This document shows, one piece after another, positions 12,627 through 27,386 of a stretch of DNA of 57,145 nt. The notes under the pieces were generated by a model. That model saw only the letters and a program-made list of their open reading frames with translations. It did no database searches and was not told where the DNA came from. Origin of the DNA: Dawidia soli (GTDB lineage Bacteria; Bacteroidota; Bacteroidia; Cytophagales; Cyclobacteriaceae); assembly GCF_018598185.1 (NCBI RefSeq), contig NZ_JAHESC010000049.1:1-57145 (forward strand). The letters run 5' to 3'. Made by a program: the position numbers and the translations under genes. The first letter of the stretch is position 1. Every line of letters begins with the position of its first letter.

Positions 12627-14912
12627 ATGAAAGTGACCCAAACGATCAAAACCTTTTTCCATAAATTCAAACAGACCACCGTTACCGATGACCTCGGACC
12701 CTACGAACGCACACTGCAGCAAACGCTGGAGCATGCCGACGGAATACTCTATAAAACCGATGCCGAACTGCGACAGCTCACCGACGACATCAAAGCCAGG
12801 ATCCAGGCAGGCGAAGCGCCGGACGCGCATATGCCGCGGCTGTATGCCCTGGTAATAGAAGCCTTCAAGCGCACCCTACACATGACACCCTATCGCGTGC
12901 AGGTGATGGCGGCCATCGCCCTGCATGAACGGAATGTGGTCGAGATGCAAACCGGCGAGGGCAAAACGCTGGTAGCCGTGATGACAGCCTGCCTGAACGC
13001 ACTGGCCGGCAAAGGTGTGCACATCCTGACGTTTAACGATTACCTCGCCAAACGCGACGCACACTGGATGCGCCCGGTATATACATTCCTCGGGTTGTCC
13101 GTGGGGTATATCCAGGAGAATATGCCCGTGGCGGAGAAACGCCGCGCCTATCGCAGCGATGTAACGTATGCCACCGCCAAGGAAGTAGGCTTCGACTACC
13201 TGCGCTCCTGCATGGCGTATACACCGGACGAAGTGATCTTGCGCGATTTTCACTATGCAATCGTCGACGAAGCCGACGCGATCCTGATCGACGAAGCCCG
13301 CAACCCGCTCGTCTTTGCCGGGACGATGGCGGGGCTGCCCGTCGATCACCTGCAAATTGCGCGTTACGTGTCGGGCCTCACGCCCTACCGTGATTTTATG
13401 CTGGATGAATATGCGCGCAACGTCTTCCTGACCGACCACGGGATCGGGAAGACGGAAGCATTTTTTGCTATACCGAATCTCTACGACGACGACCATCACC
13501 ACCTGCTCATCGCCGTGAACCTCGCGCTGCAGGCCAGGACCATGCTGCGCAAAGATGTTGACTATATCCTGGAAGACGGACGAATAAAATTAGTCGATGA
13601 ATTTACCGGCCGGGTGGTAGAAGATCGAAAATGGCAGAACGGACTACAGGCGGCCGTAGAAGCGAAGGAAGGATTGGCGGTGGCGTCGGAAGGAAGTATC
13701 CTCAACGCAATCTCGCTGCAGCACCTGATGCAGTGCTACCCCAAGGTCTCGGGCATGACGGGCACCGCGCAGCACGCGGCCGAAGAGTTTGCCGGTTTCT
13801 ATGGCCTGGGGGTTAGTATCATTCCCCCGCACAAGCCCCGCCGGCGCATCGACTATCCCGACAAGATCTTTACGCACAAAGCGGCAAAGGTCAGGGCCAT
13901 CATAGACGAAGTGCAACGGGTCCATCAAACGGGCCGCCCGATCCTCATCGGTACATTGACGGTAAAAGAATCGGAAGAGCTGCAGGCGGAAATGCAGCGA
14001 CACGGCATTGCCAGCACGGTGCTCAACGCCCGGAACAACGAGTCGGAAGCAGCGATCATCGCGCAGGCCGGTCTGCCGGGCGCGGTGACGATCTCCACTA
14101 ACATGGCCGGGCGCGGCACGGACATTTTGCTGGGTGGCACGGACCAGCACGCAAAAGATACAGTCGTAGCGTTGGGCGGCTTACACATCATCGGCACCAA
14201 CCGGCACGAAAGCGTGCGCATCGACCAGCAGCTGAAGGGTCGCGCCGGGCGACAAGGCGACCCGGGTTCGTCACAATTCATCATCAGCATGGAAGATGAC
14301 CTGATGGTAAAGTACGGTCTGAAGAGCTTGTTGCCGGAGCCGCTCCGGAACCTCCGTCAGGACGGACCGATAGGCCATGCGACCATCGCCCGAAGCATCG
14401 CCCAGGCGCAGCGGATCATCGAAGGGCAGTTGTATGAGATCCGTCTCAACCTGCACCAGTATGCGCACTTTACCGAACGGCAACGCACGATATTGTTCAA
14501 CCGGCGGCAGGATATATTTGTTTCAGCCGAAAGTCCCACGCGGGAGTATAAACTGCTGCAACACGACCTGCTTTGGTCCTACTATATGAACGATATAGCA
14601 GCGCTACGCGAAGGAATTCACTGGCAGCGCATGGCAGGAAAAAATCCGCTGCACGAATTTCACAAGAGCTCGGATGCGATGTTCCGCCAGTTGATGACAG
14701 ACCTGGAAGACAAGCTCGACAACGCACACACCCTCGATGTATCGGAGCTTCAGCGCAAGCGCCCATCGTCCACGTGGACATACCTGGTCAACGACAATCC
14801 CTTTAAAAGTCCGTTCGTGCAACTACTGGGGAACATCGGGTACCAGGTCGACCTTTTAGCAGGGCCGCTATTGATGATTCTGCGGATGTTGGGATGGGGC
14901 AGGCGGAAGTAG
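12627..14912 (+). CDS. secA: SecA paralogue (preprotein translocase ATPase, short form)
   Basis: Motor ATPase of the SecA family, 761 residues. Visible motifs: Walker A TGEGKT (109-114), DEAD box in VDEADAILIDEAR (214-217), the preprotein cross-linking insert, ISTNMAGRGTDILLGG and GLHIIGTNRHESVRIDQQLKGRAGRQGDPGSS split across helicase motifs V-VI, then a shortened scaffold/wing region. The C-terminal zinc-binding tail of housekeeping SecA is missing, and Bacteroidota housekeeping SecA is normally over 1000 residues, so this is more likely an accessory, SecA2-like motor. Its 3' end overlaps the last 45 bp of the convergent GT-C gene that closes the peptide operon. A truncated second copy lies at 26249-26869. 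Export of the NVEALA-like peptide or its lipoproteins is my inference from position. Confidence 0.88.
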   Translation: MKVTQTIKTFFHKFKQTTVTDDLGPYERTLQQTLEHADGILYKTDAELRQLTDDIKARIQAGEAPDAHMPRLYALVIEAFKRTLHMTPYRVQVMAAIALHERNVVEMQTGEGKTLVAVMTACLNALAGKGVHILTFNDYLAKRDAHWMRPVYTFLGLSVGYIQENMPVAEKRRAYRSDVTYATAKEVGFDYLRSCMAYTPDEVILRDFHYAIVDEADAILIDEARNPLVFAGTMAGLPVDHLQIARYVSGLTPYRDFMLDEYARNVFLTDHGIGKTEAFFAIPNLYDDDHHHLLIAVNLALQARTMLRKDVDYILEDGRIKLVDEFTGRVVEDRKWQNGLQAAVEAKEGLAVASEGSILNAISLQHLMQCYPKVSGMTGTAQHAAEEFAGFYGLGVSIIPPHKPRRRIDYPDKIFTHKAAKVRAIIDEVQRVHQTGRPILIGTLTVKESEELQAEMQRHGIASTVLNARNNESEAAIIAQAGLPGAVTISTNMAGRGTDILLGGTDQHAKDTVVALGGLHIIGTNRHESVRIDQQLKGRAGRQGDPGSSQFIISMEDDLMVKYGLKSLLPEPLRNLRQDGPIGHATIARSIAQAQRIIEGQLYEIRLNLHQYAHFTERQRTILFNRRQDIFVSAESPTREYKLLQHDLLWSYYMNDIAALREGIHWQRMAGKNPLHEFHKSSDAMFRQLMTDLEDKLDNAHTLDVSELQRKRPSSTWTYLVNDNPFKSPFVQLLGNIGYQVDLLAGPLLMILRMLGWGRRK
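14251..14912 (+). repeat. Duplicated secA 3' segment, copy A
   Basis: Nearly identical to 26211-26869 from GACAAGGCGACCCGGG to close to the stop codon. Copy B lacks one codon (GPIGH becomes GPGH) and the last codons differ. Similarity is clearly higher than in the paired upstream blocks. Confidence 0.9.
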
Positions 14913-16430
14913 GCCGTTGCCGAGCGGGCGCATTTCAAAACCACTGCCCACCTGGAGGTAATCGTAGTTAAGCTCCATGGCATTGTGATAGTGCCGGATG
15001 GAAGGATCCGCGTGCCGATAGAACTGAAATACGTTGCCGATAAAAAAATCGTCGCGTGTTTGGATCGCGCCGATCGTGTGTCGATGGATAAAATCGAGCA
15101 CAGGAGAAAAATTCAAAAAGTGGGCAGAATTCTCTCTATACCGGTCGTTGAGCATAAAATAGCCGGCCGTTACCTGCCTGCCGGACATACCATTGACCCG
15201 CCACAAAATACCCTGGACGATGACCAGGTTTACGATCAACACGCCTGCTACACCATACCGCACGTAGGCGCGCTCGGAAACAAGGTGCAGGCTGATGTAT
15301 AAAAACAACAGGACACCGGCTATCAACAGATATCGCATGGAAGGTATTGCGGTGTAGACATTCAGCAGACCCAGGTATACAATCAACACATAGGTCGCCG
15401 GAGAATTTTTGTAGAGAATGTCTTTTACGAGCAAATAGTATAATAACCCGACGAGAAGGCAACCGGTTACCAGCAGGTACACGCCCCACGCGAGGGGAAT
15501 CTGGTACGATAAAATATGAAACAGGACGATCTTCTGACTATAGATCTTGACCAAAAGAGCGCCATGAAATTTTGAAAAACTTAAAAAGCATACCACCAAC
15601 AGCGCAATCTTAAACGCTTCGTGCACCGACGTGGCGGCTATGCGGCGCAGGAGCCTACCAAAAGCACCGGCCAGTGTATGCAGCAGAAAACACTCCGCCA
15701 CGATCAGAAGAAACGGCAGCAAAAAAAACATGCGCCCGAGCCGGTGCCAGACAAGGTCGGCGCGCAAACAAAGATAGAGCAGGCCACTATTGAGCACGGC
15801 CAGAAAGAGGGCTGCCACGGCGGCGGGCATGGTCTCTGAAGGGGACTCTTTACCAAAAAGGGTCCAGACGACGATCCCGACCCAGGCGGCGAGCGGGAGG
15901 CATGAAAAAATGATATGATTATACCCGCCCAGTAAGCAGACGGACAGAAACACAAAGCACCACGCGCGGCCGCCGGACGTGTACACCTGATATCCCGAAA
16001 CCAGAAAAAGACTGGTAAATAAAAAATTAAAAGAACACACCTCCCAACTGATCTTGCCATACAAAAGATAGAATGCGGATTGCCCGAAAAACAGCAGAAA
16101 AAAAAGAGCGGTTGACGGAGCGTACCGTTTTCGAAGAAACCAGACCACGATAGCCAGCGCAAAAATATTGAACAGAATGCCGGGCATGCGCAATGCCACT
16201 ACATCAATACTAAAAAGACGAAATGCGGCGGCATTGGCCAGCGATTGTAACAAGCCGGTATAGGTCACGATGCCATACGGCCGCGAAATACCTTGCTGAA
16301 GTATCTTGATGCCGTCCAATCCGCCCCACGCTTCGTCGCCATGCAAGCCGATGGTCTCCACGTAGGTCAACCAGTACAGCGCGATGGTGCCCAGCAGCAG
16401 CACACAGGCGGCGTCTATCCATCTTTTCAT
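14868..16430 (-). CDS. GT-C-type membrane glycosyltransferase (PMT/ArnT-like)
   Basis: A polytopic inner-membrane protein of about 520 residues with some 11-12 predicted helices. The first periplasmic loop holds TIGLHGDEAW, the acidic DE motif that marks GT-C enzymes using polyprenyl-phosphate sugars (ArnT, PMT and related PF13231 proteins). These transfer a sugar onto lipid, protein or polysaccharide outside the inner membrane. ATG at 16430 (MKRWIDAACVLL) is preferred since GGAG lies 9 nt before it; ATG 16445 would add five residues. It is the last gene of the - strand peptide operon, 34 bp after the signal peptidase stop, and its 3' end overlaps the secA paralogue by 45 bp. Acceptor unknown; modification of an exported product of this operon is inferred. 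Confidence 0.78.
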   Translation of the reverse strand: MKRWIDAACVLLLGTIALYWLTYVETIGLHGDEAWGGLDGIKILQQGISRPYGIVTYTGLLQSLANAAAFRLFSIDVVALRMPGILFNIFALAIVVWFLRKRYAPSTALFFLLFFGQSAFYLLYGKISWEVCSFNFLFTSLFLVSGYQVYTSGGRAWCFVFLSVCLLGGYNHIIFSCLPLAAWVGIVVWTLFGKESPSETMPAAVAALFLAVLNSGLLYLCLRADLVWHRLGRMFFLLPFLLIVAECFLLHTLAGAFGRLLRRIAATSVHEAFKIALLVVCFLSFSKFHGALLVKIYSQKIVLFHILSYQIPLAWGVYLLVTGCLLVGLLYYLLVKDILYKNSPATYVLIVYLGLLNVYTAIPSMRYLLIAGVLLFLYISLHLVSERAYVRYGVAGVLIVNLVIVQGILWRVNGMSGRQVTAGYFMLNDRYRENSAHFLNFSPVLDFIHRHTIGAIQTRDDFFIGNVFQFYRHADPSIRHYHNAMELNYDYLQVGSGFEMRPLGNGLLPPAPSQHPQNHQ

Positions 16431-16464
16431 TTTAACATTCTCCATGCTCTATGATGCATCACAC

Positions 16465-17409
16465 CTACTTTAACGGACAAAAAAAGCGATTCCAGCGAAT
16501 ATGGTTTGTTTGCCGATCTTTGGAGAACAACACGCGGGCAGCCTTGCCGATGACATTCTGCTCGGGAACGAACCCCCATTTTCTGGAATCTTCAGAATAA
16601 CGACGATTATCGCCCAGCAAAAAATAATAGTCGTATTTGAACGTAAACACGGAGTCGGCCACGCCGTTTATGAGAATAGTATCGTTCACGACTTCAACAG
16701 AAGCGCCCTCGTACCGGTTGATGATATTTATATAGTACGGCAGCGCACGCTTGTAACGATGCAGGTTTATGCTCAAATCCCTGCTGGGCACCTGCATGGC
16801 CTTTACATCGTTGCTTTCATTTTGCAGGTAGGGACTCAGACGCAGATGCCTTTCGCCACCACGGCGGCGCAACAACCTGGCGGTATCGGGATGCAGGCTG
16901 TAGGGATATGCCTGATCGGCTGCTGTATCACAGCCCGGATAGTAGTATCCATACTGGTACCGGATGGTTTCCGGATCCTGGGCCGGCGCGCCGTTAATAA
17001 ATAACTGGTCTGCCGATACCTCCACGATATCGCCCGGCAGGGCCCTGCAACGTTTTACGAGCACGGTCTCATCGTCCCACGGGCCCTCGAAGACCATGAT
17101 GTCGTCTCTTGAAACTGATGCGTGCGACAGTCTGTTGTACCCCCAGTGAGTATCTCTGAACCAGGGAAAAACATGTTTGTCGAGCGCAAACAAATTAAAC
17201 CAAGGAATCTCCAACGGGCTTCGCGGCATACGGGCGCCGTAGGAAAGCTTATTCACCAAAATGTAATCGCCCACGAGTATACACTGCTCCATGGATGCGG
17301 TGGGTACGTGGCGTAAATCCACGACAAAGAGTTTTATACCGACGGACAGAACAACAACCAGGAAACCCCAGAAAAGCCACCTTCTCCATTTTATAGTATA
17401 TCTGTTCAT
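16465..17409 (-). CDS. lepB: Signal peptidase I (S26 family), operon-embedded
   Basis: Inner-membrane peptidase that removes signal peptides from Sec-exported proteins. The 314-residue protein has one N-terminal membrane helix (about 11-31), then the catalytic Ser39 in VPTASMEQ (usual form PSGSM), the general-base Lys119 in VLVKRCRALPGD, and the GDNRRYSEDSRKWGFV box near the C-terminus. A long insert between the catalytic boxes is usual for Bacteroidota LepB. The start follows a short gap (14 bp) after the O-antigen-ligase gene, placing it inside the peptide operon. Housekeeping lepB is normally elsewhere, so this looks like a dedicated copy; the exported peptide in the same operon has a plausible type I cleavage site (SAKA). 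Confidence 0.92.
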   Translation of the reverse strand: MNRYTIKWRRWLFWGFLVVVLSVGIKLFVVDLRHVPTASMEQCILVGDYILVNKLSYGARMPRSPLEIPWFNLFALDKHVFPWFRDTHWGYNRLSHASVSRDDIMVFEGPWDDETVLVKRCRALPGDIVEVSADQLFINGAPAQDPETIRYQYGYYYPGCDTAADQAYPYSLHPDTARLLRRRGGERHLRLSPYLQNESNDVKAMQVPSRDLSINLHRYKRALPYYINIINRYEGASVEVVNDTILINGVADSVFTFKYDYYFLLGDNRRYSEDSRKWGFVPEQNVIGKAARVLFSKDRQTNHIRWNRFFCPLK

Positions 17410-17423
17410 TTGTTTCCCCTCTT

Positions 17424-19268
17424 TTATTGTTCGTTTATAGGTTGGTGCGCGTTCGTTTCAATGAGCCGGGCCATCTCCGCCTTGATCTCGTCGACGGCTT
17501 GGGAGGGAACTTTTACGGACATACTCATGATCTGCCGTGCGACGGTCAAGGCCCGTTGTTCCTCGCCCATTTCCAGGTATAGTTTTGCCAGCAAGTATCG
17601 CGGGTAGAACTTATGCGGTATGAGGTAGACGGCATTTTGATAGGACTGCTCGGCCTTGGCAAATTGTCCCGTCTCCTGATAACAAAGCCCCAGCGCGTTA
17701 AACAAATAAGGATCAGCGGTCAATGTTGCCGCATGCTGCAGCACGGCTATTCCCTCGGTGTAACGCCCCTGAAGCGCCAACGTCTGACCGTACTCAAACA
17801 TAAACTGACCGTTGCCGTGCAAGGCCGGCTCGAGGGCCTGCATAAATTTCAGGGCGCGGGGGTAGTCTCGATACTCTTTCAAAAACGAAGCGGTCTTCCA
17901 GTCGCGCAGGGCCCGGTACTGAATGCACAATTTCCACGTGACCGCGACGATCAACGTAGCCATTGTCATCGCGAATAACGCTCTGGCCACAGCACCCGGC
18001 GCCCACCGAAATGAAACACCGGCACGGGCGTCATCTGTACACGAGAGTATACTCATAAAAATATACAGGTTCAAAAAAACGGGCGTAACCGAAAACGGGT
18101 AGGAGAAAAAAGAAAACGCCACAAGACCGGCCACCCCGCTCAGCGCCGTGGTGCGGAGGGGCGCGGCGGGATCACCACGATCGCAGTATTTGAAATGTTC
18201 GCGTATGGCGGAAACGAGGATACCGACAAAAAGCGTCAGACCGAAAAAACCTTTTTCGGCCGCTATAAAAAGAAACTCGTTAAACGCATATTCACCCTTG
18301 CCGGCGGTCATGACCTCATCGGCAGCGGCATGTGGGTTGTCGCGAAAATAGGCCCGTTGATAGTGGCCAAAGTGGGGTGTGTACTGATCCAACCCGACGC
18401 CAAAAACGGGATTATCGCGAATTACCTGCCACGTTATTTTCCAAATGAACATTCTTCCCACCGACGAATCGCGCTTCCATTGGAACAACGCTACGGATAA
18501 AAATACAATCACAGTGACCAAAATACACACCGCCACCCGGCCGGGCCGTAGCCTGGCATAACCTGCCAGGAACACGGCAGCGGCCACCACGAGTGCAATC
18601 CACGCCGCCCGGCTGAGCGTGGCAGGAAGAACGACTAGGATAGCCAACCCGGCAGCGACGGCCAGGTAGCGAAGCGCTGTGCACCGCATTGAAATATAAT
18701 ACGTGCCCAACGCCAGCGGAAAAACAGAAACCAGGTAGGCGGCGTAGGCCGCAGGGTTAAAAAAGGTGCCTGTTACCTGGAAATATGCGTGGTAACGATC
18801 CAAAAAACCATAGAGCTGGAGCAGACCGAACAGTGCTTGAAACAACGCTGTTGCCAGCAGAAAAAACAGTACCGCGCGATACTTCTGAAAGTCGCGCAGC
18901 AGCACCTTGTTTACATAGAAAATACCGGAGGCGAAGACGAGCTCCAGGAACCGAACATTATACCACGACGCCTGCGGCGTATATAGTAACCTGACGAATG
19001 TGTAGAGAACATAGGCCGCCACCAACCCATCCGTTGCCGACAGCGCGAGCACCACGGGTGACCGCCGGACGAGGAATGCCACGCAGCATACTACCATCAT
19101 GCCCGCGGAAGTCCACAGAAAGCCGTAGCTTTTCCCTGTAATCGCCCCATCTTTGAGCACGGGCAGCACGAGCACCGAGGCGATGATCACCACACAAAAC
19201 GAAGCCACGGTGAGATACCGGACAAGAACACCCGGCGCCATGCTCTTCTTATCGGACGTGCTGACCAT
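17424..19268 (-). CDS. O-antigen ligase/polymerase-like membrane protein with C-terminal TPRs
   Basis: A 614-residue protein with about 11-12 membrane helices and a cytoplasmic or periplasmic C-terminal tail. The core shows Wzy_C (PF04932) features: TGTFFNPAAYAAYL, a SRAAWIAL segment and the large periplasmic loop containing NPVFGVGLDQYTPHFGHYQR. WaaL, Wzy and PglL-type enzymes of this family move glycans from undecaprenyl-PP onto lipid A, onto other glycans or onto proteins. From about residue 470 helical TPR units appear (YTEGIAVLQHAATL, AKAEQSYQNAVYLIP), an arrangement also seen in protein O-oligosaccharyltransferases. It lies 26 bp after the CxxC lipoprotein gene and 14 bp before signal peptidase I. 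Acting on the operon's exported products is inferred. Confidence 0.85.
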   Translation of the reverse strand: MVSTSDKKSMAPGVLVRYLTVASFCVVIIASVLVLPVLKDGAITGKSYGFLWTSAGMMVVCCVAFLVRRSPVVLALSATDGLVAAYVLYTFVRLLYTPQASWYNVRFLELVFASGIFYVNKVLLRDFQKYRAVLFFLLATALFQALFGLLQLYGFLDRYHAYFQVTGTFFNPAAYAAYLVSVFPLALGTYYISMRCTALRYLAVAAGLAILVVLPATLSRAAWIALVVAAAVFLAGYARLRPGRVAVCILVTVIVFLSVALFQWKRDSSVGRMFIWKITWQVIRDNPVFGVGLDQYTPHFGHYQRAYFRDNPHAAADEVMTAGKGEYAFNEFLFIAAEKGFFGLTLFVGILVSAIREHFKYCDRGDPAAPLRTTALSGVAGLVAFSFFSYPFSVTPVFLNLYIFMSILSCTDDARAGVSFRWAPGAVARALFAMTMATLIVAVTWKLCIQYRALRDWKTASFLKEYRDYPRALKFMQALEPALHGNGQFMFEYGQTLALQGRYTEGIAVLQHAATLTADPYLFNALGLCYQETGQFAKAEQSYQNAVYLIPHKFYPRYLLAKLYLEMGEEQRALTVARQIMSMSVKVPSQAVDEIKAEMARLIETNAHQPINEQ

Positions 19269-19294
19269 CTATTTACTTCTTGCCGTACCTGAAA

Positions 19295-19768
19295 CTACTT
19301 ATGCAGCATGCCTAACTTCAGCAACGACTGATAATTATTCATATCGATGGTAATGACACCGTCTTCGGAGGGAATAAAGATCAAGGGATAGATCGTTCGC
19401 ACGCCGGACCGGTACATCTCATTATTTTCATCGAGCAAGATCCTGTCATCCTCCATCTTTTTCGGGAACCCCATTTGCAAGCGAAAGATCTTCATGGACG
19501 AGATCTCGGTAAAGACGAACCTGGTGCGGCTATCCTTGCGCTTGATATCCTCAAAAAAGAACTTGGTAGCCTCGCTGATACATTTATCACATCCGGTGGT
19601 GGGGATGATCAGATAGATATTGTTTACATCGCCTACGTCCTCGCGCGCATTGATCTTCAGGATCGCAGCACGCAACTTTGCCGGCAGGTCATCACCCTTC
19701 TGACACGACGTGAACATACACACTAATAGCATGACGCAGAAAAAAGAAGCTTTGCGGCTATTTTTCAT
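19295..19768 (-). CDS. Lipoprotein with CxxC, thioredoxin-like candidate
   Basis: A 157-residue lipoprotein: signal peptide with lipobox FTSC (Cys22), then a small alpha/beta domain. The strand NNIYLIIPTTGC leads into C60-D-K-C63, a CxxC placed after the first strand as in thioredoxin-fold proteins, followed by helix ISEATKFFFEDIK. The end (YPLIFIPSEDGVITIDMNN) resembles the cis-Pro strand region. I infer a periplasmic or surface thiol protein; it could shape disulfides in the six-cysteine peptide of the same operon. Its ATG overlaps the TGA of the DUF4221 gene by 4 bp (ATGA), so the two are translationally coupled. Not a standard TlpA domain; the fold assignment is tentative. Confidence 0.72.
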   Translation of the reverse strand: MKNSRKASFFCVMLLVCMFTSCQKGDDLPAKLRAAILKINAREDVGDVNNIYLIIPTTGCDKCISEATKFFFEDIKRKDSRTRFVFTEISSMKIFRLQMGFPKKMEDDRILLDENNEMYRSGVRTIYPLIFIPSEDGVITIDMNNYQSLLKLGMLHK

Positions 19769-20934
19769 GGTTGCACATCCATCAGTTTAAACACGCCAAA
19801 CACCAGCTTACTATCATCTGCTTTGGAAGCCTCCCACTTGGCGAGGTGCAGTCCGTCGGGAGCGACAAAAAACATTGTTTCGGTATAGGAGAACCGGGGC
19901 AACAGCGTCTCGCCGATCTTGGTGAAATTGTGATCGAGGATGATGATGGACGCATGCTTCACGCCACTCTTATCGGGGTCGTTAGACGCCAGGTCGTCGG
20001 CGGAGATGGGCTGCAGGGCGATTCGATAATACAAATTCTGATAGGGGTCGAAAATAACGCCCTGGTACGACGGCGTGCTCAAATAATATTTCAAGCGTGC
20101 ATCGGCGTCGGTTTCGGTAGCACGCCAGGAGGGAATATCGCTAAAAAATTGACTGGCGGCATTATGCGGCGTGGGCGCCGCGCTGAAATCTGTTTCATAG
20201 AGCCGATGATCGGCCGCAAAGCTGAAAATAAACTTTTCGGTCGACGGGTTGAACGTATAATAGTATTGCGAAAGATAAGGGCCCCAGACACCGCCTTTAT
20301 AGCTTTCGGGGTAGGACAGCGCAGCGCTGATCTTTTGGGTTGTGAGGTCGACGATAGACACCAGGTTGTCGGAGGCAAAATCGGTAAGCTCCGAAAACGG
20401 ATCAATGCCCGGCACATCATGGCCGCCGGCGTAAAGCTTGTCGCGATGAATAAACAACGGCCTTGTGGTCAAGCCTTCCGAAAAAAACCTGAGGTTGTTG
20501 GAATTCATCACGTGACCGTCGCGGTTAAGCAATAGCAGGAAAAAATCCTTATCTGCCAAAACATATACCGAATCCAGGCTTTTAACCACAAATGACTGCA
20601 CTTTGCCGGCCTTGGCCAATGCCTCTTTTTCCAACGCGAGCCGATGATGTACCTTACCGTCGGCGTACCCATAAAAATAGAGCGTGTTGGTATAGGAATT
20701 CAGTAAACACAGATACTGATCGCCGTTGGCATCTTTATAGAATTGCAAACAGCCCGTGTAGTACGGGGTTATGCTATCGAGCTCGAACGATTTTATGCCT
20801 ACCTCGACAAGTGTTTTTGAAAATGCCGGACCACCGGCGCCGGCAGTACGGGATTGGTCCTTCTCCGGCTGGCAGCAGCTTAAACCGAAGACGACTGTTA
20901 AAAGAAAAGACACCTTTGTTATTGCGTTCTTCAT
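19765..20934 (-). CDS. DUF4221-like beta-propeller lipoprotein
   Basis: A 389-residue lipoprotein (signal peptide ending in GLSC-C, lipidation at Cys20 or 21). The body carries repeated beta strands of a propeller kind: YLCLLNSYTNTLYFYGYADG, LDSVYVLADKDFFLLLLNRDG and HASIIILDHNF. This matches the Bacteroidota family DUF4221, related to the 6-bladed propeller lipoproteins that often sit beside NVEALA-type peptide genes. Its biochemical role is unknown; binding the exported peptide is only an inference from gene order. The gene follows the peptide gene after a 229-bp spacer that holds a strong hairpin, and is coupled to the CxxC lipoprotein gene downstream by an ATGA overlap. Confidence 0.8.
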   Translation of the reverse strand: MKNAITKVSFLLTVVFGLSCCQPEKDQSRTAGAGGPAFSKTLVEVGIKSFELDSITPYYTGCLQFYKDANGDQYLCLLNSYTNTLYFYGYADGKVHHRLALEKEALAKAGKVQSFVVKSLDSVYVLADKDFFLLLLNRDGHVMNSNNLRFFSEGLTTRPLFIHRDKLYAGGHDVPGIDPFSELTDFASDNLVSIVDLTTQKISAALSYPESYKGGVWGPYLSQYYYTFNPSTEKFIFSFAADHRLYETDFSAAPTPHNAASQFFSDIPSWRATETDADARLKYYLSTPSYQGVIFDPYQNLYYRIALQPISADDLASNDPDKSGVKHASIIILDHNFTKIGETLLPRFSYTETMFFVAPDGLHLAKWEASKADDSKLVFGVFKLMDVQP

Positions 20935-21106
20935 AGTTATTAAAACAATAGTTTTTCAGCCTACCCGGACTGCACACTATAAACATGCAGGGGTTAGCGA
21001 TTGCAAGCGCTACGATTGGGCTACGATTGGTTTGGACAAAATCATTCCACGCACCTTAGACACGGGCGCGGTATGCCTTTCATAAAACAAGTGATTTAAC
21101 TCAAGT

Positions 21107-21141
21107 GTATTGCAATGGCACGGGAAGTACCATTACAATAC
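21107..21141 (-). promoter_or_regulatory. 15-bp stem-loop behind the peptide gene
   Basis: On the - strand GTATTGTAATGGTAC pairs with GTGCCATTGCAATAC around a 5-nt loop TTCCC. The only two non-Watson-Crick positions are G-U pairs in - strand RNA but would be C-A mismatches in + strand RNA, so the structure fits a - strand transcript. It begins 23 nt past the peptide stop. No T-run follows directly, so it looks like an mRNA stabiliser or attenuator, not a full terminator. Confidence 0.7.
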
Positions 21142-21163
21142 AACAACTCTGCAAAATGTCGCG

Positions 21164-21430
21164 TTACTTAGGACAGTCCGTATTGGACGACGACGCGGTC
21201 TTACATTCGCAGGTCTGATTTCCGTTTACCGTAATTCTCCAGCATTGCCCGCCTTTGCCGGATTCGCAGTTGCAATTTTCGCCCAGCGCCTCAGAGGAAG
21301 CGAGCAAACTGAGGGTTACACTGTTGTCTTTTGGAGTTGCTTTTGCGCTGATGTTGCCATTGAACGCGATAACCATGGCGAGGGAGAGAATGCCGAGGGC
21401 TACGAGAATTTGTTTACTAACTTTTTTCAT
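21164..21430 (-). CDS. NVEALA-like six-cysteine exported peptide
   Basis: An 88-residue precursor. Residues 1-31 are a Sec signal peptide (MKKVSKQILVALGILSLAMV...) with a type I cleavage site SAKA before Thr32. A short linker carries LLASSEALGE, close to the motif that names the Bacteroidota NVEALA peptide family. The C-terminal core (52-88) has Cys at 53, 55, 63, 74, 76 and 86, spaced CxC-x7-C-x10-CxC-x9-C, with glycine and asparagine between. NVEALA peptides are small exported products of unknown role, usually next to propeller lipoproteins, as here. This gene leads the - strand operon with a lipoprotein pair, O-antigen-ligase-like protein, signal peptidase and GT-C enzyme behind it. A toxin, signal or surface-peptide function would be guesswork. 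Confidence 0.8.
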   Translation of the reverse strand: MKKVSKQILVALGILSLAMVIAFNGNISAKATPKDNSVTLSLLASSEALGENCNCESGKGGQCWRITVNGNQTCECKTASSSNTDCPK

Positions 21431-21454: not shown

Positions 21455-21484
21455 AAAATATAGAAAGTAAATATATGCACCAAA
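21455..21484 (-). promoter_or_regulatory. Candidate promoter of the peptide operon
   Basis: On the - strand TTTG (21484-21481) is followed after 18 nt by TATATTTT (21462-21455), close to the Bacteroidota TTTG-N19-TAnnTTTG pattern, 25 bp before the ATG of the peptide gene. It is the only AT-rich promoter-like stretch ahead of the six - strand genes. Confidence 0.5.
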
Positions 21485-24041: not shown

Positions 24042-24080
24042 CGATCGTTGCTGCTATCGTTACATTCAATCAACCATTAT

Positions 24081-26045
24081 ATGACCGTTACCAAGCACAT
24101 TCAATCGGCGCTGACCATTTTGAGCCTGACATCGCTGCTATCGTGCAACGACACCCCCGAAAACGTACAGCTGGCATTGGCGCAAGCCGGCGAACACCGT
24201 ACGGAGCTGGAACGGGTGATCGAACATTACAGCCACGATGCGGCCGACAGCCTGAAGTTGAAAGCCGCCTACTTCCTGATCGGGAACATGGAAGGGTATC
24301 ATTATTACCAGGGCGAGACGCTGGACCGGTATCACGATTTTTTTGATACGGCCATAGCGTTGCACACAAAATGGCCCGGCATGGATATCAATCCCCTGGG
24401 CGATTCGCTTCGCGATGTCTATGGCCCGGCGACGACGGGCAACGTAAAAATCCTGCCGGACCTGCAAACGATACGCGGTGAATATCTGATCAATAACATT
24501 GACCATGCCTATAAGGCGTGGCAGGAGCAGCCCTGGTGTAAGCATGTAACATTCGACCAGTTCTGCGAATTTATATTACCGTACCGCATCGAGAACGAAG
24601 ATCCTTATGCGTTTGATCGTAACACGATCTATGATCAATTTGATACATTGCTGAACCCGGTTCGCCGGAACGGGGGCGGCGCGATGGCCGCCTGCCTGAC
24701 GATCAACCAGGAGCTGAAGAAGGGCATGTGGGTGTTTACGAATGCACTGGAAAGCCTGCCCCATTTTGGTGCGAAAACGATCCTGGAAAAACGGGTGGGC
24801 GTATGCCGTGAATATGCCGACCTGGCCTTATACACCATGCGGGCCACAGGCATACCGGTGGCGATCGACTTTACGCCGCAGTGGCCCTTTCGGAGCCTGG
24901 GACACAGCTGGAATGTGCTGTTGGCTGAAAATGGTAAAAAGATCATGTTCCTGGGCATCGAGTCTGACCCCGGGCAGCCGCACAAGGCCGATCACAAAAA
25001 AGCAAAAGTATATCGCAATACGTTCGCTATACAACCTCAAAGCCTGGCGAAAACAGCGGGTGATACCGACATACCACCGCTGTTCCGGAATGCGCGATTC
25101 ATCGATGTATCGGATGAATATTTCGAGGGCAAGGATGTAGAGATCGAACTCGACAACGTGGAAGAACAGGACACCTATGCCTATATATGTGTGTTCGACA
25201 ACCGGAACTGGGTGCCGATCCATTGGGGAAAAATCACGGATGGCAAGGTAGTCTTCACAAAAATGGGACGGGATATCGTCTACCTTCCGGCATATTACAG
25301 GAAAGGGAAGATCGTACCGGCCGCGTCTCCATTCCTACTCACGAACGAAGGAGAGGTGAAGACGCTGGACGTTTCACCCGGTGAACGACAACAGATGACG
25401 TTGTTGCGGAAATTTCCGATACTGACGATACGCGAACGCATGGTACGCGTGGCGGGGGGAAAATTCCAGGGCGCCAATCGCCCCGACTTTAAGGATTCGA
25501 CAACGCTGTTTACCATATCACGGCCCGACATCTTCTACCAGACTGTCGACATTTCAACGGAAAAGAAATTCCGGTACCTGCGGTATCTCGCGCCGCGCAA
25601 GAGCAACGGCAATATTGCCGAAATAGAGTTCTACAGTGCAACCGACAGCCTGCATCCGTTAAAAGGAGAGATCATAGGAGATGCAGAAGTCTGTGGTCCT
25701 GCCAACGGGCGGGAGACCGCAATGGATGGAGATGTGCTGACGTTCTACGACGCGCGTAAGATAGACAACGCCTGGGTGGGAATCGATATAGGGGCTGCGC
25801 GAAGAATAAACAAGATCCGTTATCTCGCCACCAATGATGGGAACAACATCGTACCCGGCGACGACTACGAGCTGTTTTATTTTAAAGACAAAGGCTGGCG
25901 TTCAGCCGGCCGGCAAGTGGCAACCGACTACGCATTGATTTTCGATCGCGTGCCGTCGGGAGGGCTGTACCTTCTGCGCAACTATACGGAAGGCAAAGAG
26001 GAAAGAATCTTCACGTATAAAAACGGGCAGCAGGTTTGGTGGTAG
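24081..26045 (+). CDS. Transglutaminase-like lipoprotein with C-terminal discoidin-like domain
   Basis: A 654-residue lipoprotein. ATG 24081 is chosen because it starts the signal peptide (MTVTKHIQSALTILSL...LLSC, Cys22); an in-frame ATG at 24048 would add a non-signal tail. The middle is a transglutaminase-like papain-fold domain with the full triad: Cys242 in GVCREYADLAL, His275 in LGHSWNVLL and Asp296 in IESDPGQP. A region of beta strands follows. The last 150 residues resemble an F5/8 type C (discoidin) sugar-binding domain (FRYLRYLAPRKSNGNIAEIEFY, AWVGIDIGAARRINKIRYLA). The family is common in Bacteroidota PULs and may cleave or cross-link proteins or peptidoglycan stems; the substrate is unknown. 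It lies 39 bp behind a permease gene. Confidence 0.85.
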   Translation: MTVTKHIQSALTILSLTSLLSCNDTPENVQLALAQAGEHRTELERVIEHYSHDAADSLKLKAAYFLIGNMEGYHYYQGETLDRYHDFFDTAIALHTKWPGMDINPLGDSLRDVYGPATTGNVKILPDLQTIRGEYLINNIDHAYKAWQEQPWCKHVTFDQFCEFILPYRIENEDPYAFDRNTIYDQFDTLLNPVRRNGGGAMAACLTINQELKKGMWVFTNALESLPHFGAKTILEKRVGVCREYADLALYTMRATGIPVAIDFTPQWPFRSLGHSWNVLLAENGKKIMFLGIESDPGQPHKADHKKAKVYRNTFAIQPQSLAKTAGDTDIPPLFRNARFIDVSDEYFEGKDVEIELDNVEEQDTYAYICVFDNRNWVPIHWGKITDGKVVFTKMGRDIVYLPAYYRKGKIVPAASPFLLTNEGEVKTLDVSPGERQQMTLLRKFPILTIRERMVRVAGGKFQGANRPDFKDSTTLFTISRPDIFYQTVDISTEKKFRYLRYLAPRKSNGNIAEIEFYSATDSLHPLKGEIIGDAEVCGPANGRETAMDGDVLTFYDARKIDNAWVGIDIGAARRINKIRYLATNDGNNIVPGDDYELFYFKDKGWRSAGRQVATDYALIFDRVPSGGLYLLRNYTEGKEERIFTYKNGQQVWW

Positions 26046-26049
26046 GATC

Positions 26050-26083
26050 GTGAATTAAACATGGTGATTCTGGCAGATTTGTA
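26050..26083 (+). repeat. Copy 1 of a 34-bp motif shared with the sigma-factor leader
   Basis: GTGAATTAAACATG (26050-26063) recurs exactly at 27298-27311, and the following 20 bp stay similar, ending in ATTTGT in both. The second copy lies upstream of the ECF sigma gene. It may be a shared promoter or operator element. Confidence 0.5.
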
Positions 26084-26207: not shown

Positions 26208-26210
26208 ATC

Positions 26211-26869
26211 GACAAGGCGACCCGGGGTCATCACAATTCATCATCAGCATGGAAGATGACCTGATGGTAAAGTACGGTCTGAAGAGCTTATTGCCGGAGC
26301 CGCTCCGGAACCTCCGTCAGGACGGACCGGGCCATGCGACCATCGCCCGAAGCATCGCCCAGGCGCAGCGGATCATCGAGGGGCAACTATATGAGATCCG
26401 CCTCAACCTGCACCAGTATGCGCACTTTGCCGAACGGCAACGCACGATATTGTTCAACCGGCGGCAGGATATATTTGTTTCAGCCGAAAGTCCCACGTGG
26501 GAGTATAAACTGCTGCAACACGACCTGCTTTGGTCCTACTATATGAACGATATAGCAGCGCTACGCGAAGGAATTCACTGGCAGCGCATGGCAGGAAAAA
26601 ATCCGCTGCACGAATTTCACAAGAGCTCGGATGCGATGTTCCGCCAGTTGATGACAGACCTGGAAGACAAGCTCGACAACGCGCACACCCTCGATGTATC
26701 GGAGCTTCAGCGCAAGCGCCCATCGTCCACGTGGACATACCTGGTCAATGACAATCCCTTTAAAAGTCCGTTCGTGCAGCTGCTGGGCAACATCGGGTAC
26801 CAGGTCGACCTGTTCGCCGGTCCGCTGCTGCTGCTGATGCGGATCTTTGGATGGCGAAAGCGGAGATAA
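26211..26869 (+). pseudogene. Truncated second copy of the SecA paralogue
   Basis: Homologous to the last 220 codons of the SecA paralogue at 12627-14912. Both nucleotide-binding motifs (GEGKT, DEAD), the preprotein-binding region and most of NBD2 are gone; what remains starts inside the helicase motif VI region and runs through the scaffold/wing part to the C-terminus. An open frame from ATG 26249 (MEDDLMVKYGLKSLL) codes for 206 residues ending in FGWRKRR, but cannot be an ATPase. The copy keeps a diverged version of the secA leader, so it may be transcribed. I call it a deletion derivative; a regulatory or dimer-interfering fragment cannot be excluded because the frame stays open and intact. 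Confidence 0.85.
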
Positions 26870-27085: not shown

Positions 27086-27386
27086 CACATCATTTTTTCA
27101 ATGGATGTGCAATAACCGCCCCATTTTACAGACGCCACAAGCATAATACCCCGCATCATCCACTTAGGACACAGGCCCTAGCCGTAGTCCGCCTCCTGAT
27201 GGCTGTCGCGAATGTGCGTTCACAACGGTACCGGTGCTGGCAGAAAAAAACCACGGCCGCACGGCGCGCAACGATCGTTCGACAGGGTGCTGCAAATGTG
27301 AATTAAACATGATCATTACGATAAATTTGTCAATTAAAATCGTTTAATTAGTAAACGTTTGCACAAAGCAATTACGGCCTAAACCC
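27086..27386. other. Intergenic region before the ECF sigma gene
   Basis: No gene seen. The left part is GC-rich and featureless. The last 90 bp are AT-rich, hold copy 2 of the GTGAATTAAACATG motif (27298-27331), and contain TTTG (27326-27329) with TA 19 bp later (27349), a weak candidate promoter for the sigma gene. Confidence 0.5.
27298..27331 (+). repeat. Copy 2 of the 34-bp motif, in the sigma-factor leader
   Basis: Same 14-bp string as 26050-26063 with a similar tail; 56 bp before the ECF sigma start. Confidence 0.5.

Follow-up and report, generated by a model that had tools for sequence, protein, structure and literature searches.

Several described systems come close to parts of the one considered here. 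The bacteroidetocins, peptide toxins of Bacteroidota, have four Cys and a 15-aa GG leader; their gene regions encode a thiol oxidoreductase and an ABC-like transporter that carries a double-glycine peptidase domain, and no immunity protein is reported to have been found for them (PMC6671954). Further comparisons are offered by the NVEALA peptide family (PF14055), by signal peptidase I (LepB, TIGR02227) and by the ligases WaaL (7tpg) and PglS, of which the latter reportedly depends on a catalytic His, its H324A variant being an inactive control (PMC12800693). The subject of this study is a stretch of 57,145 nucleotides from Dawidia soli (contig NZ_JAHESC010000049.1, hereafter the window), in which a minus-strand run of six open reading frames (ORFs) at 14868-21430 encodes a six-Cys peptide precursor, a DUF4221 propeller lipoprotein, a CxxC lipoprotein, a Wzy_C membrane protein with a TPR tail (WzyC-TPR), a type I signal peptidase (S26) and a polytopic membrane protein. 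Judging by gene neighbourhoods and sequence comparison, this locus is probably one copy of a Bacteroidota-wide system making small disulfide-rich exported peptides with a dedicated S26 peptidase. No paper on NVEALA, DUF4221 or this gene combination was found in the open-licence PMC literature, where PF14055 and related accessions apparently, by title and opening of the abstract, occur only in Plasmodium or method papers, and no published description of a set-up of this kind was found there.

The six genes, their coordinates, the six Cys positions, the tight gaps and an ATGA overlap had been proposed in a sequence-only reading of this DNA, and all are borne out by the ORF calls (gaps of 229, -4 (ATGA), 26, 14 and 19 bp in operon order from the peptide gene), as are the family names DUF4221, Wzy_C/TPR and S26 by Pfam (Table 1). 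The CxxC lipoprotein, the putative GT-C protein and the peptide had no Pfam match above chance, and Rfam at its gathering threshold gave no match. What the locus shares with the bacteroidetocins is the phylum, a small Cys-rich peptide and a thiol oxidoreductase in the region; it differs in having a membrane leader with an AxA-type site, S26, propeller, WzyC-TPR and transglutaminase-like proteins, where they have the GG leader and the transporter. The window peptide has no double-glycine leader, there being no GG before its first Cys (53) and the sole GG (60-61) lying inside the Cys-rich part, and no ABC transporter with a double-glycine peptidase domain was present among the nine window proteins scanned by Pfam, the rest of the window not having been searched.

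In the plan that the precursors share, a short N-terminus with positive charge leads into one membrane segment, followed by a spacer of about 25 residues, an AxA-type site and a variable Cys-rich part of about 40 residues. Against Pfam the window peptide matched no family at E<=1, PF14055 (cut-off 27 bits) included, and a leader-only profile did not detect it significantly. A profile of 68 related peptides from other genomes ranked it first of 488 ORFs (those of the window and of L030, a second locus in the same genome) with E 6.9e-6, and the same profile, neither of the two own peptides being in its build, placed the L030 peptide second of the 488 (E 0.0018). Of seven relatives from neighbourhoods of this kind that were tested, four (L082, L107, L076 and L091) passed the PF14055 cut-off; these share the leader plan ending in an AxA-type site, whereas the other three (L060, L055 and L108), like the window peptide, miss the model. 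The window peptide has the motif variant SSEALG (EALG recurs in L188 at 15544), and many related peptides carry ANA, AMA and similar instead. The label "NVEALA-like" proposed earlier holds for the membrane leader, the EALA-type motif, the Cys tail and the match to the related-peptide profile, and does not hold for PF14055 itself.

Leaders were surveyed at 150 propeller genes (L019, L020 and L202 omitted), all ORFs being considered, and 79 had an exported small ORF just upstream, 78 of these being distinct; the presence of AxA was not a selection criterion, and a few apparently false ORFs are left among the 78 (e.g., L096, L108 8072, L053 8447 and L188 4145). In 63 of the 78 the membrane segment is followed by an AxA at a distance of 12-30 residues, mostly 23-27 (mean 12.1 and maximum 23 over 500 shuffles), and in the usual signal-peptidase position, 0-9 residues past the segment, in only three, compared with 9.5 in shuffles. 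NVEALA can thus be seen as one version of a displaced AxA site that is general in these peptides. Its equivalent in the window peptide is EALG at residues 47-50, with G at -1, which leaves a predicted mature part of 38 residues (51-88) containing all six Cys. SAKA (28-31), which was suggested previously as the cleavage site, sits close to where signal peptidases ordinarily cut and is atypical of the family, though the window peptide could be cut at either. The median length of the mature parts is 39 residues, with even Cys counts (2, 4, 6 or 8) in 58 of 70, a count made without a chance control. Within genomes, mean identity is 0.49 for the leader and 0.25 for the mature part, the latter being 0.22 between genomes (34 comparisons, 12 genomes).

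The window S26 resembles signal peptidase I in its Ser39/Lys119 dyad and in passing TIGR02227 (115 bits, cut-off 47), and has an N-terminal hydrophobic segment; the catalytic Ser and Lys are invariant in 20 of 20 S26 proteins. It differs from LepB in that the S26 proteins of these loci form a lineage of their own and that the predicted substrate site lies about 25 residues past the membrane segment. When 44 S26 proteins of the loci were placed in one tree with 21 others, only two label changes were needed against a shuffle mean of 18.0 (500 shuffles, none as low), by which measure the locus S26 is a paralogue lineage separate from housekeeping LepB. The window S26 is a long branch within a supported locus subclade of 15, and two "other" proteins group with the locus ones (G469b and G545x, the surroundings of the latter being unchecked). 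A KRC motif considered as a signature of the locus S26 was discarded, occurring in 44 of 44 locus proteins and also in 15 of 21 others. In 9 of 14 WzyC-TPR genomes an S26 lies in such a locus or belongs to the lineage (in G535 by position only).

Within the family, 11 of the 148 genomes have relatives of WzyC-TPR (E<=1e-15), the window's own counted; such relatives occur in one of seven genus genomes, again the window's own. A contig scan confirmed 305 stretches with such relatives, and of the best 80, which were kept, 77 are Bacteroidota by title, the titles of the remaining three naming Campbellbacteria, Tissierellia and Balneolaceae; for the first two of these, a binning error is a possible guess. 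Neighbourhoods were mapped at 94 loci, the window and duplicates included, 93 of them with a WzyC ORF in the gene calls (L062 has none) and many truncated by contig ends. These loci are not independent, as several genomes contributed more than one and some overlap: L019 and L020 share a genome with L053 and L044, L202 is, judged by length and content, the same contig as L037, and L025 is the same as L111. The 94-locus count, in which L019, L020 and L025 were retained, gave the propeller in 64, the transglutaminase-like gene in 48, S26 in 41, the CxxC family in 37, MacB in three, GT-C in two and SecA2 in one; a small Cys-rich peptide was counted in 59, a rough figure because the simple longest-ORF gene caller overlooked the window's peptide (an overlapping ORF was chosen) and credited one false peptide.

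When L019, L020, L025 and the window are set aside, 90 loci are left, of which 41 are at least 17 kb ("long loci"). Among these the propeller is found in 31, a peptide directly 5' of the propeller in 27, the transglutaminase-like gene in 24, RND in 22, MFP in 20, S26 in 19, the CxxC lipoprotein in 18 (only those with the motif, which some matches to the family lack), TolC in 18, an MG2-domain protein in 11, MacB in one, and GT-C and SecA2 in none. The grouping of these genes is therefore more than chance; the association is strong in some parts, and single loci need not contain all of them. A check suggested earlier was to look for the same families near the peptide in other genomes; S26, CxxC, propeller and WzyC-TPR do recur together with it, and GT-C in the long loci does not.

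The Pfam model detects little of the peptide family, since PF14055 exceeds its cut-off in only 1 of 296 genomes of a phylum-wide draw. Of 198 Bacteroidales genomes taken in one draw, six contain a PF14055 peptide (E<=1e-4) and 20 a WzyC-TPR (E<=1e-30), and five contain both, against 0.6 expected; the sixth genome with the peptide (G560) has peptide-propeller pairs, but no WzyC-TPR match. Peptides lacking these partners in most genomes would have spoken against the sequence-only reading, and with WzyC-TPR in five of the six the opposite pattern was obtained. Among the regions listed around PF14055 peptides, peptide-propeller pairs are often in tandem, and in several of those regions S26, CxxC-family, transglutaminase-like and WzyC-TPR genes lie near them. 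On the window's own genome a peptide profile, built with both of that genome's own peptides among its members, has two significant matches, one at this locus (contig C66) and one on contig C110, each adjoining WzyC-TPR, and matches beside WzyC-TPR were also found in G007 and G072. The congeners G074, G127 and G149 have no significant peptide-profile match (E 0.5 in G074, which is chance level) and no WzyC-TPR.

The CxxC lipoprotein has a lipobox at C22, and C60/C63 and Y127-P128 are invariant in 14 of 14 aligned proteins. Its structure model (pLDDT 77, pTM 0.66) has the CxxC where the first core helix begins and the Pro ahead of a later strand, and its nearest structures are thioredoxin-like and peroxiredoxin ones (2l5o, DipZ, ResA and CcmG among them; best Foldseek E 3e-3, TM about 0.42), which gives moderate support to a thioredoxin-like fold. 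The transglutaminase-like lipoprotein matches Transglut_core (5.1e-5; 23.9 bits, cut-off 23) and, under the cut-off, F5_F8_type_C (3.6e-5); of 44 sequences (L019, L020 and L025 omitted), 43 keep its Cys253 and 39 its His286, and its true start may be an ATG 33 bp into the ORF. This lipoprotein, the RND pump of the relatives, the hairpin and the insertion scar described below are parts that the sequence-only reading did not include.

In the mechanism that we propose, the precursor would enter through Sec and remain anchored by its leader until the dedicated S26 cuts it at the displaced AxA, in the window peptide EALG, whose distance from the membrane segment exceeds that of a normal signal-peptide site. 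The CxxC lipoprotein would form or shuffle the disulfides, the propeller would bind the mature peptide as a carrier, receptor or immunity protein, and WzyC-TPR together with the Cys-protease-like (transglutaminase-like) lipoprotein would perform a further step on it; in many relatives an RND pump would export the peptide. In this genome the gene set arrived as an insert in secA2. As a design, a path that would export, cut and probably oxidise the peptide is well supported, the recurrent families, the S26 lineage and the moderate thioredoxin-like match all agreeing with what had been claimed of it earlier.

A number of results weigh against this proposal. No part is universal, and S26, CxxC, propeller and peptide stand together in only 10 of the 41 long loci, or in 6 of 41 if the transglutaminase-like gene is included (window excluded). 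The window peptide itself shows ALG and not AxA at the displaced site and is among the only three of 78 with AxA at 0-9 residues past the membrane segment. Of the 14 WzyC-TPR genomes searched, five (G043, G138, G143, G493 and G482) have no recognised locus-type S26, not every match having been placed in the tree, so housekeeping LepB may cut there, and G138 has WzyC-TPR yet no peptide match at E<=1. The CxxC model has no Foldseek match at E<=1e-3, and its sequence profile against PDB sequences found no thioredoxin above chance (glutaredoxin 1ego at E 0.14, with kinases in the top rows). No RND gene was found among the window's ORFs. Co-divergence of peptide and propeller was also considered and gave no signal (rho 0.09 between propeller and mature-peptide divergence, with 115 of 300 permutations as high).

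What WzyC-TPR does bears on several of the alternatives. R220, R272 and N330 are conserved in 90 of 90 family members and E338 in 89 of 90. The protein is like WaaL and PglS in being Wzy_C by profile and in its two conserved arginines, and unlike them in its TPR tail and in YAFN at the WaaL HAHN position, the EHAHND of 7tpg being eYAFNE in this family with His-x-His replaced by Y-A-F. No WaaL/PglS-type catalytic His is present in the family alignment; His160, conserved in 78 of 90, could serve another reaction. Glycosylation of the peptide had been suggested earlier, with WzyC-TPR as its O-glycan ligase and the GT-C enzyme making or adding the sugar, and the Wzy_C match, a weak match to the putative O-glycosylation ligase model TIGR03097 (9e-10, under cut-off) and the match to WaaL 7tpg (E 1.2e-6) would agree with it. 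We now regard it as unlikely, given the replaced His, on which PglS reportedly depends (PMC12800693), and a GT-C-like gene present in just 1 of 148 family genomes (the window's own) and 0 of 41 other long loci, by which the GT-C enzyme is also rejected as a part of the system. The GT-C label is itself unverified, because the protein has no Pfam or NCBIfam family above chance and its structure model (AF2, two-row alignment) is unusable at pLDDT 35. The acidic DE after its first membrane segment, a motif known from GT-C enzymes, is only suggestive. A tentative alternative is a separate class of peptide export with a Sec-inserted leader, a displaced AxA and a signal peptidase that has evolved to cut it, in which the WaaL-like protein, devoid of the glycan-transfer His, would move or attach the peptide and not a sugar; equally tentatively, the cut peptide would pass between the thioredoxin lipoprotein, the matching propeller and the WaaL-like protein.

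As to what the peptides are for, a bacteriocin-like or a signalling role may be considered. It is conceivable, if doubtful, that they are bacteriocins, i.e., disulfide-bonded antibacterial peptides with the propeller as cognate immunity protein and the other genes maturing and exporting them: a conserved leader with a variable core and tandem peptide-propeller pairs are in keeping with this, as are the four Cys and the oxidoreductase gene of the bacteroidetocins, but propeller and peptide divergence are uncorrelated, no toxin activity is known for these peptides, and the bacteroidetocins (PMC6671954) use a GG leader and an ABC-like transporter, with no immunity protein found. We would give a similarly low probability to signals or surface-displayed building blocks, with the propeller as receptor or anchor and with WzyC-TPR and the transglutaminase-like protein attaching the peptide to the surface. 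The lipoproteins and the WaaL-like protein suggest such attachment, and the conserved Cys253 and His286 and the invariant R220 and R272 are compatible with it; the WaaL/PglS His base is missing, so attachment by known ligase chemistry is doubtful. That the genes are ordinary neighbours assembled by horizontal transfer with no joint function is very improbable: the window copy is indeed an insert and contents differ between genomes, but 19 of the 41 other long loci have an S26 close to WzyC-TPR despite only 1-6 S26 matches per genome (21 genomes searched), and the locus S26 lineage is distinct. If the dedicated export system is real, it would provide a function for families for which no description was found (NVEALA, DUF4221 and TolB-like propellers, and WzyC-TPR) in Bacteroidota of many habitats and a new way of maturing disulfide peptides in Gram-negatives; with a shared leader and variable core, the peptides would probably include antimicrobial or signalling molecules that have yet to be studied, and sharp predictions follow, namely one cut site, one protease and one oxidase.

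The stop codon of the window peptide is followed by a hairpin whose stem of 16 bp has z -3.77 and was equalled in 0 of 200 shuffles, and such hairpins (z<-2, median -3.39) follow 58 of 78 peptide genes. In random draws of 110 and 80 control genes, of which 105 and 72 were usable, they follow six of the 105 genes of the WzyC, CxxC-family, S26 and transglutaminase-like kinds and six of the 72 propeller genes. The pattern points to a terminator that leaks or to a 3' end that stabilises the message, giving much peptide and little of the rest, and the hairpin probably permits far more peptide message than enzyme message. Scans for sigma-70 promoters and terminators gave no more matches than chance. 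With the sigma-ABfr consensus (PMC7366714), the window has two matches against 3.16 expected by chance, so only the position of one of them 5' of the peptide gene is of note; with spacers of 17-20 and at most one mismatch, 8 of 78 peptide genes have a match in front of them, as do 18 of 336 partner genes, and 1 of 78 shuffled upstreams contains one, which makes for a weak case for such a promoter across the peptide genes.

The host site is a gene for a SecA2-like protein of 761 aa (mycobacterial SecA2 model TIGR04221, 733 bits, cut-off 725). The 3' part of this gene, from 14250 to about 14850, recurs at 26210-26869 with 98% identity in two main blocks and more divergence in the last ~60 bp. 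The congener G149 has a SecA2-like gene (84% protein identity) with a single 3' end, the inserted genes not being found in the 33 kb around it; the duplicated 3' end, this plain gene and the restriction of WzyC-TPR to one of seven genus genomes argue that a segment of ~11 kb has been inserted, which by sequence carries the operon, the permease and the transglutaminase-like gene. Single-crossover integration of DNA bearing a piece of the secA2 3' end would fit the scar. With its last codons the GT-C-like gene overlaps the 3' end of secA2 in antisense orientation, and its C-terminus is unlike that of its paralogue. SecA2 was rejected as a part of the system: a SecA2-like gene is present in two of seven genus genomes, one of which (G149) lacks WzyC-TPR, other genus matches looking like ordinary, longer SecA, and in 0 of 41 other long loci. 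The same genome has a further copy of the system, diverged from this one (L030, contig C110, 1-11434), with a MacB-type permease, GT-C-like (55%) and transglutaminase-like (68%) proteins, a propeller-type lipoprotein, WzyC-TPR (28%) and a Cys-rich peptide whose displaced site reads TVLA; no S26 match was found on that contig.

Table 1. Position of the features discussed, in window coordinates.
Feature	Position	Strand	Basis or remark
Six-Cys exported peptide precursor	21164-21430	-	88 aa; Cys 53, 55, 63, 74, 76, 86; profile match, leader comparison
DUF4221 propeller lipoprotein, usual gene after the peptide	19765-20934	-	PF13970 E 1.1e-24; neighbourhoods
CxxC lipoprotein, putatively thioredoxin-like	19295-19768	-	C22 lipobox, C60/C63, Y127-P128
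Wzy_C (O-antigen-ligase-like) membrane protein with TPR tail (WzyC-TPR)	17424-19268	-	Wzy_C E 1e-21
Type I signal peptidase paralogue (S26), predicted to be dedicated	16465-17409	-	Peptidase_S26 E 7e-34; Ser39/Lys119
Polytopic membrane protein, possibly GT-C	14868-16445	-	Among searched genomes, in this one only
Transglutaminase-like lipoprotein with F5/8C-like part (C253, H286)	24048-26045	+	Frequent system partner
MacB/FtsX-type permease, within the inserted segment	21687-24041	+	Pfam; membership doubtful, in 2/90 other loci
SecA2-like gene, 3' end is the insert site; host site, no conserved part	12627-14912	+	
Partial second copy of secA2 3' end, right edge of insert	26210-26869	+	
Strong RNA hairpin (16-bp stem, 5-nt loop) between peptide gene and rest of operon	21106-21142	-	
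Sigma-ABfr-like promoter match, directly 5' of peptide gene	21455-21484	-	TTTG-N18-TAnnTTTG, 1 mismatch

Some further elements were observed in the window and in the relatives. A 33-bp repeat, GTGAATTAAACATG..., has two copies at 26050-26082 and 27298-27330 (79%), one of them near the right end of the insert. MFP-RND-TolC export genes lie beside WzyC-TPR in many relatives (by phmmer, RND in 37, MFP in 36 and TolC in 30 loci), examples being L071 11809-17514, L054 11584-17378 and L094 15010-20524. A protein of ~750-800 aa with an MG2-like domain (Pfam E 4e-6 in L094, under cut-off) is encoded in relatives, e.g., at L094 12620-14953 and L060 13866-16154, and 11 loci have ORFs related to it. Beside peptide-propeller arrays or WzyC-TPR there are also small proteins, 69-77 aa long (L020 6662-6895, L022 10954-11163 and L027 6546-6779); the one in L020 is HTH_11, those in L022 and L027 are similar by their first residues, and all three are possible regulators.

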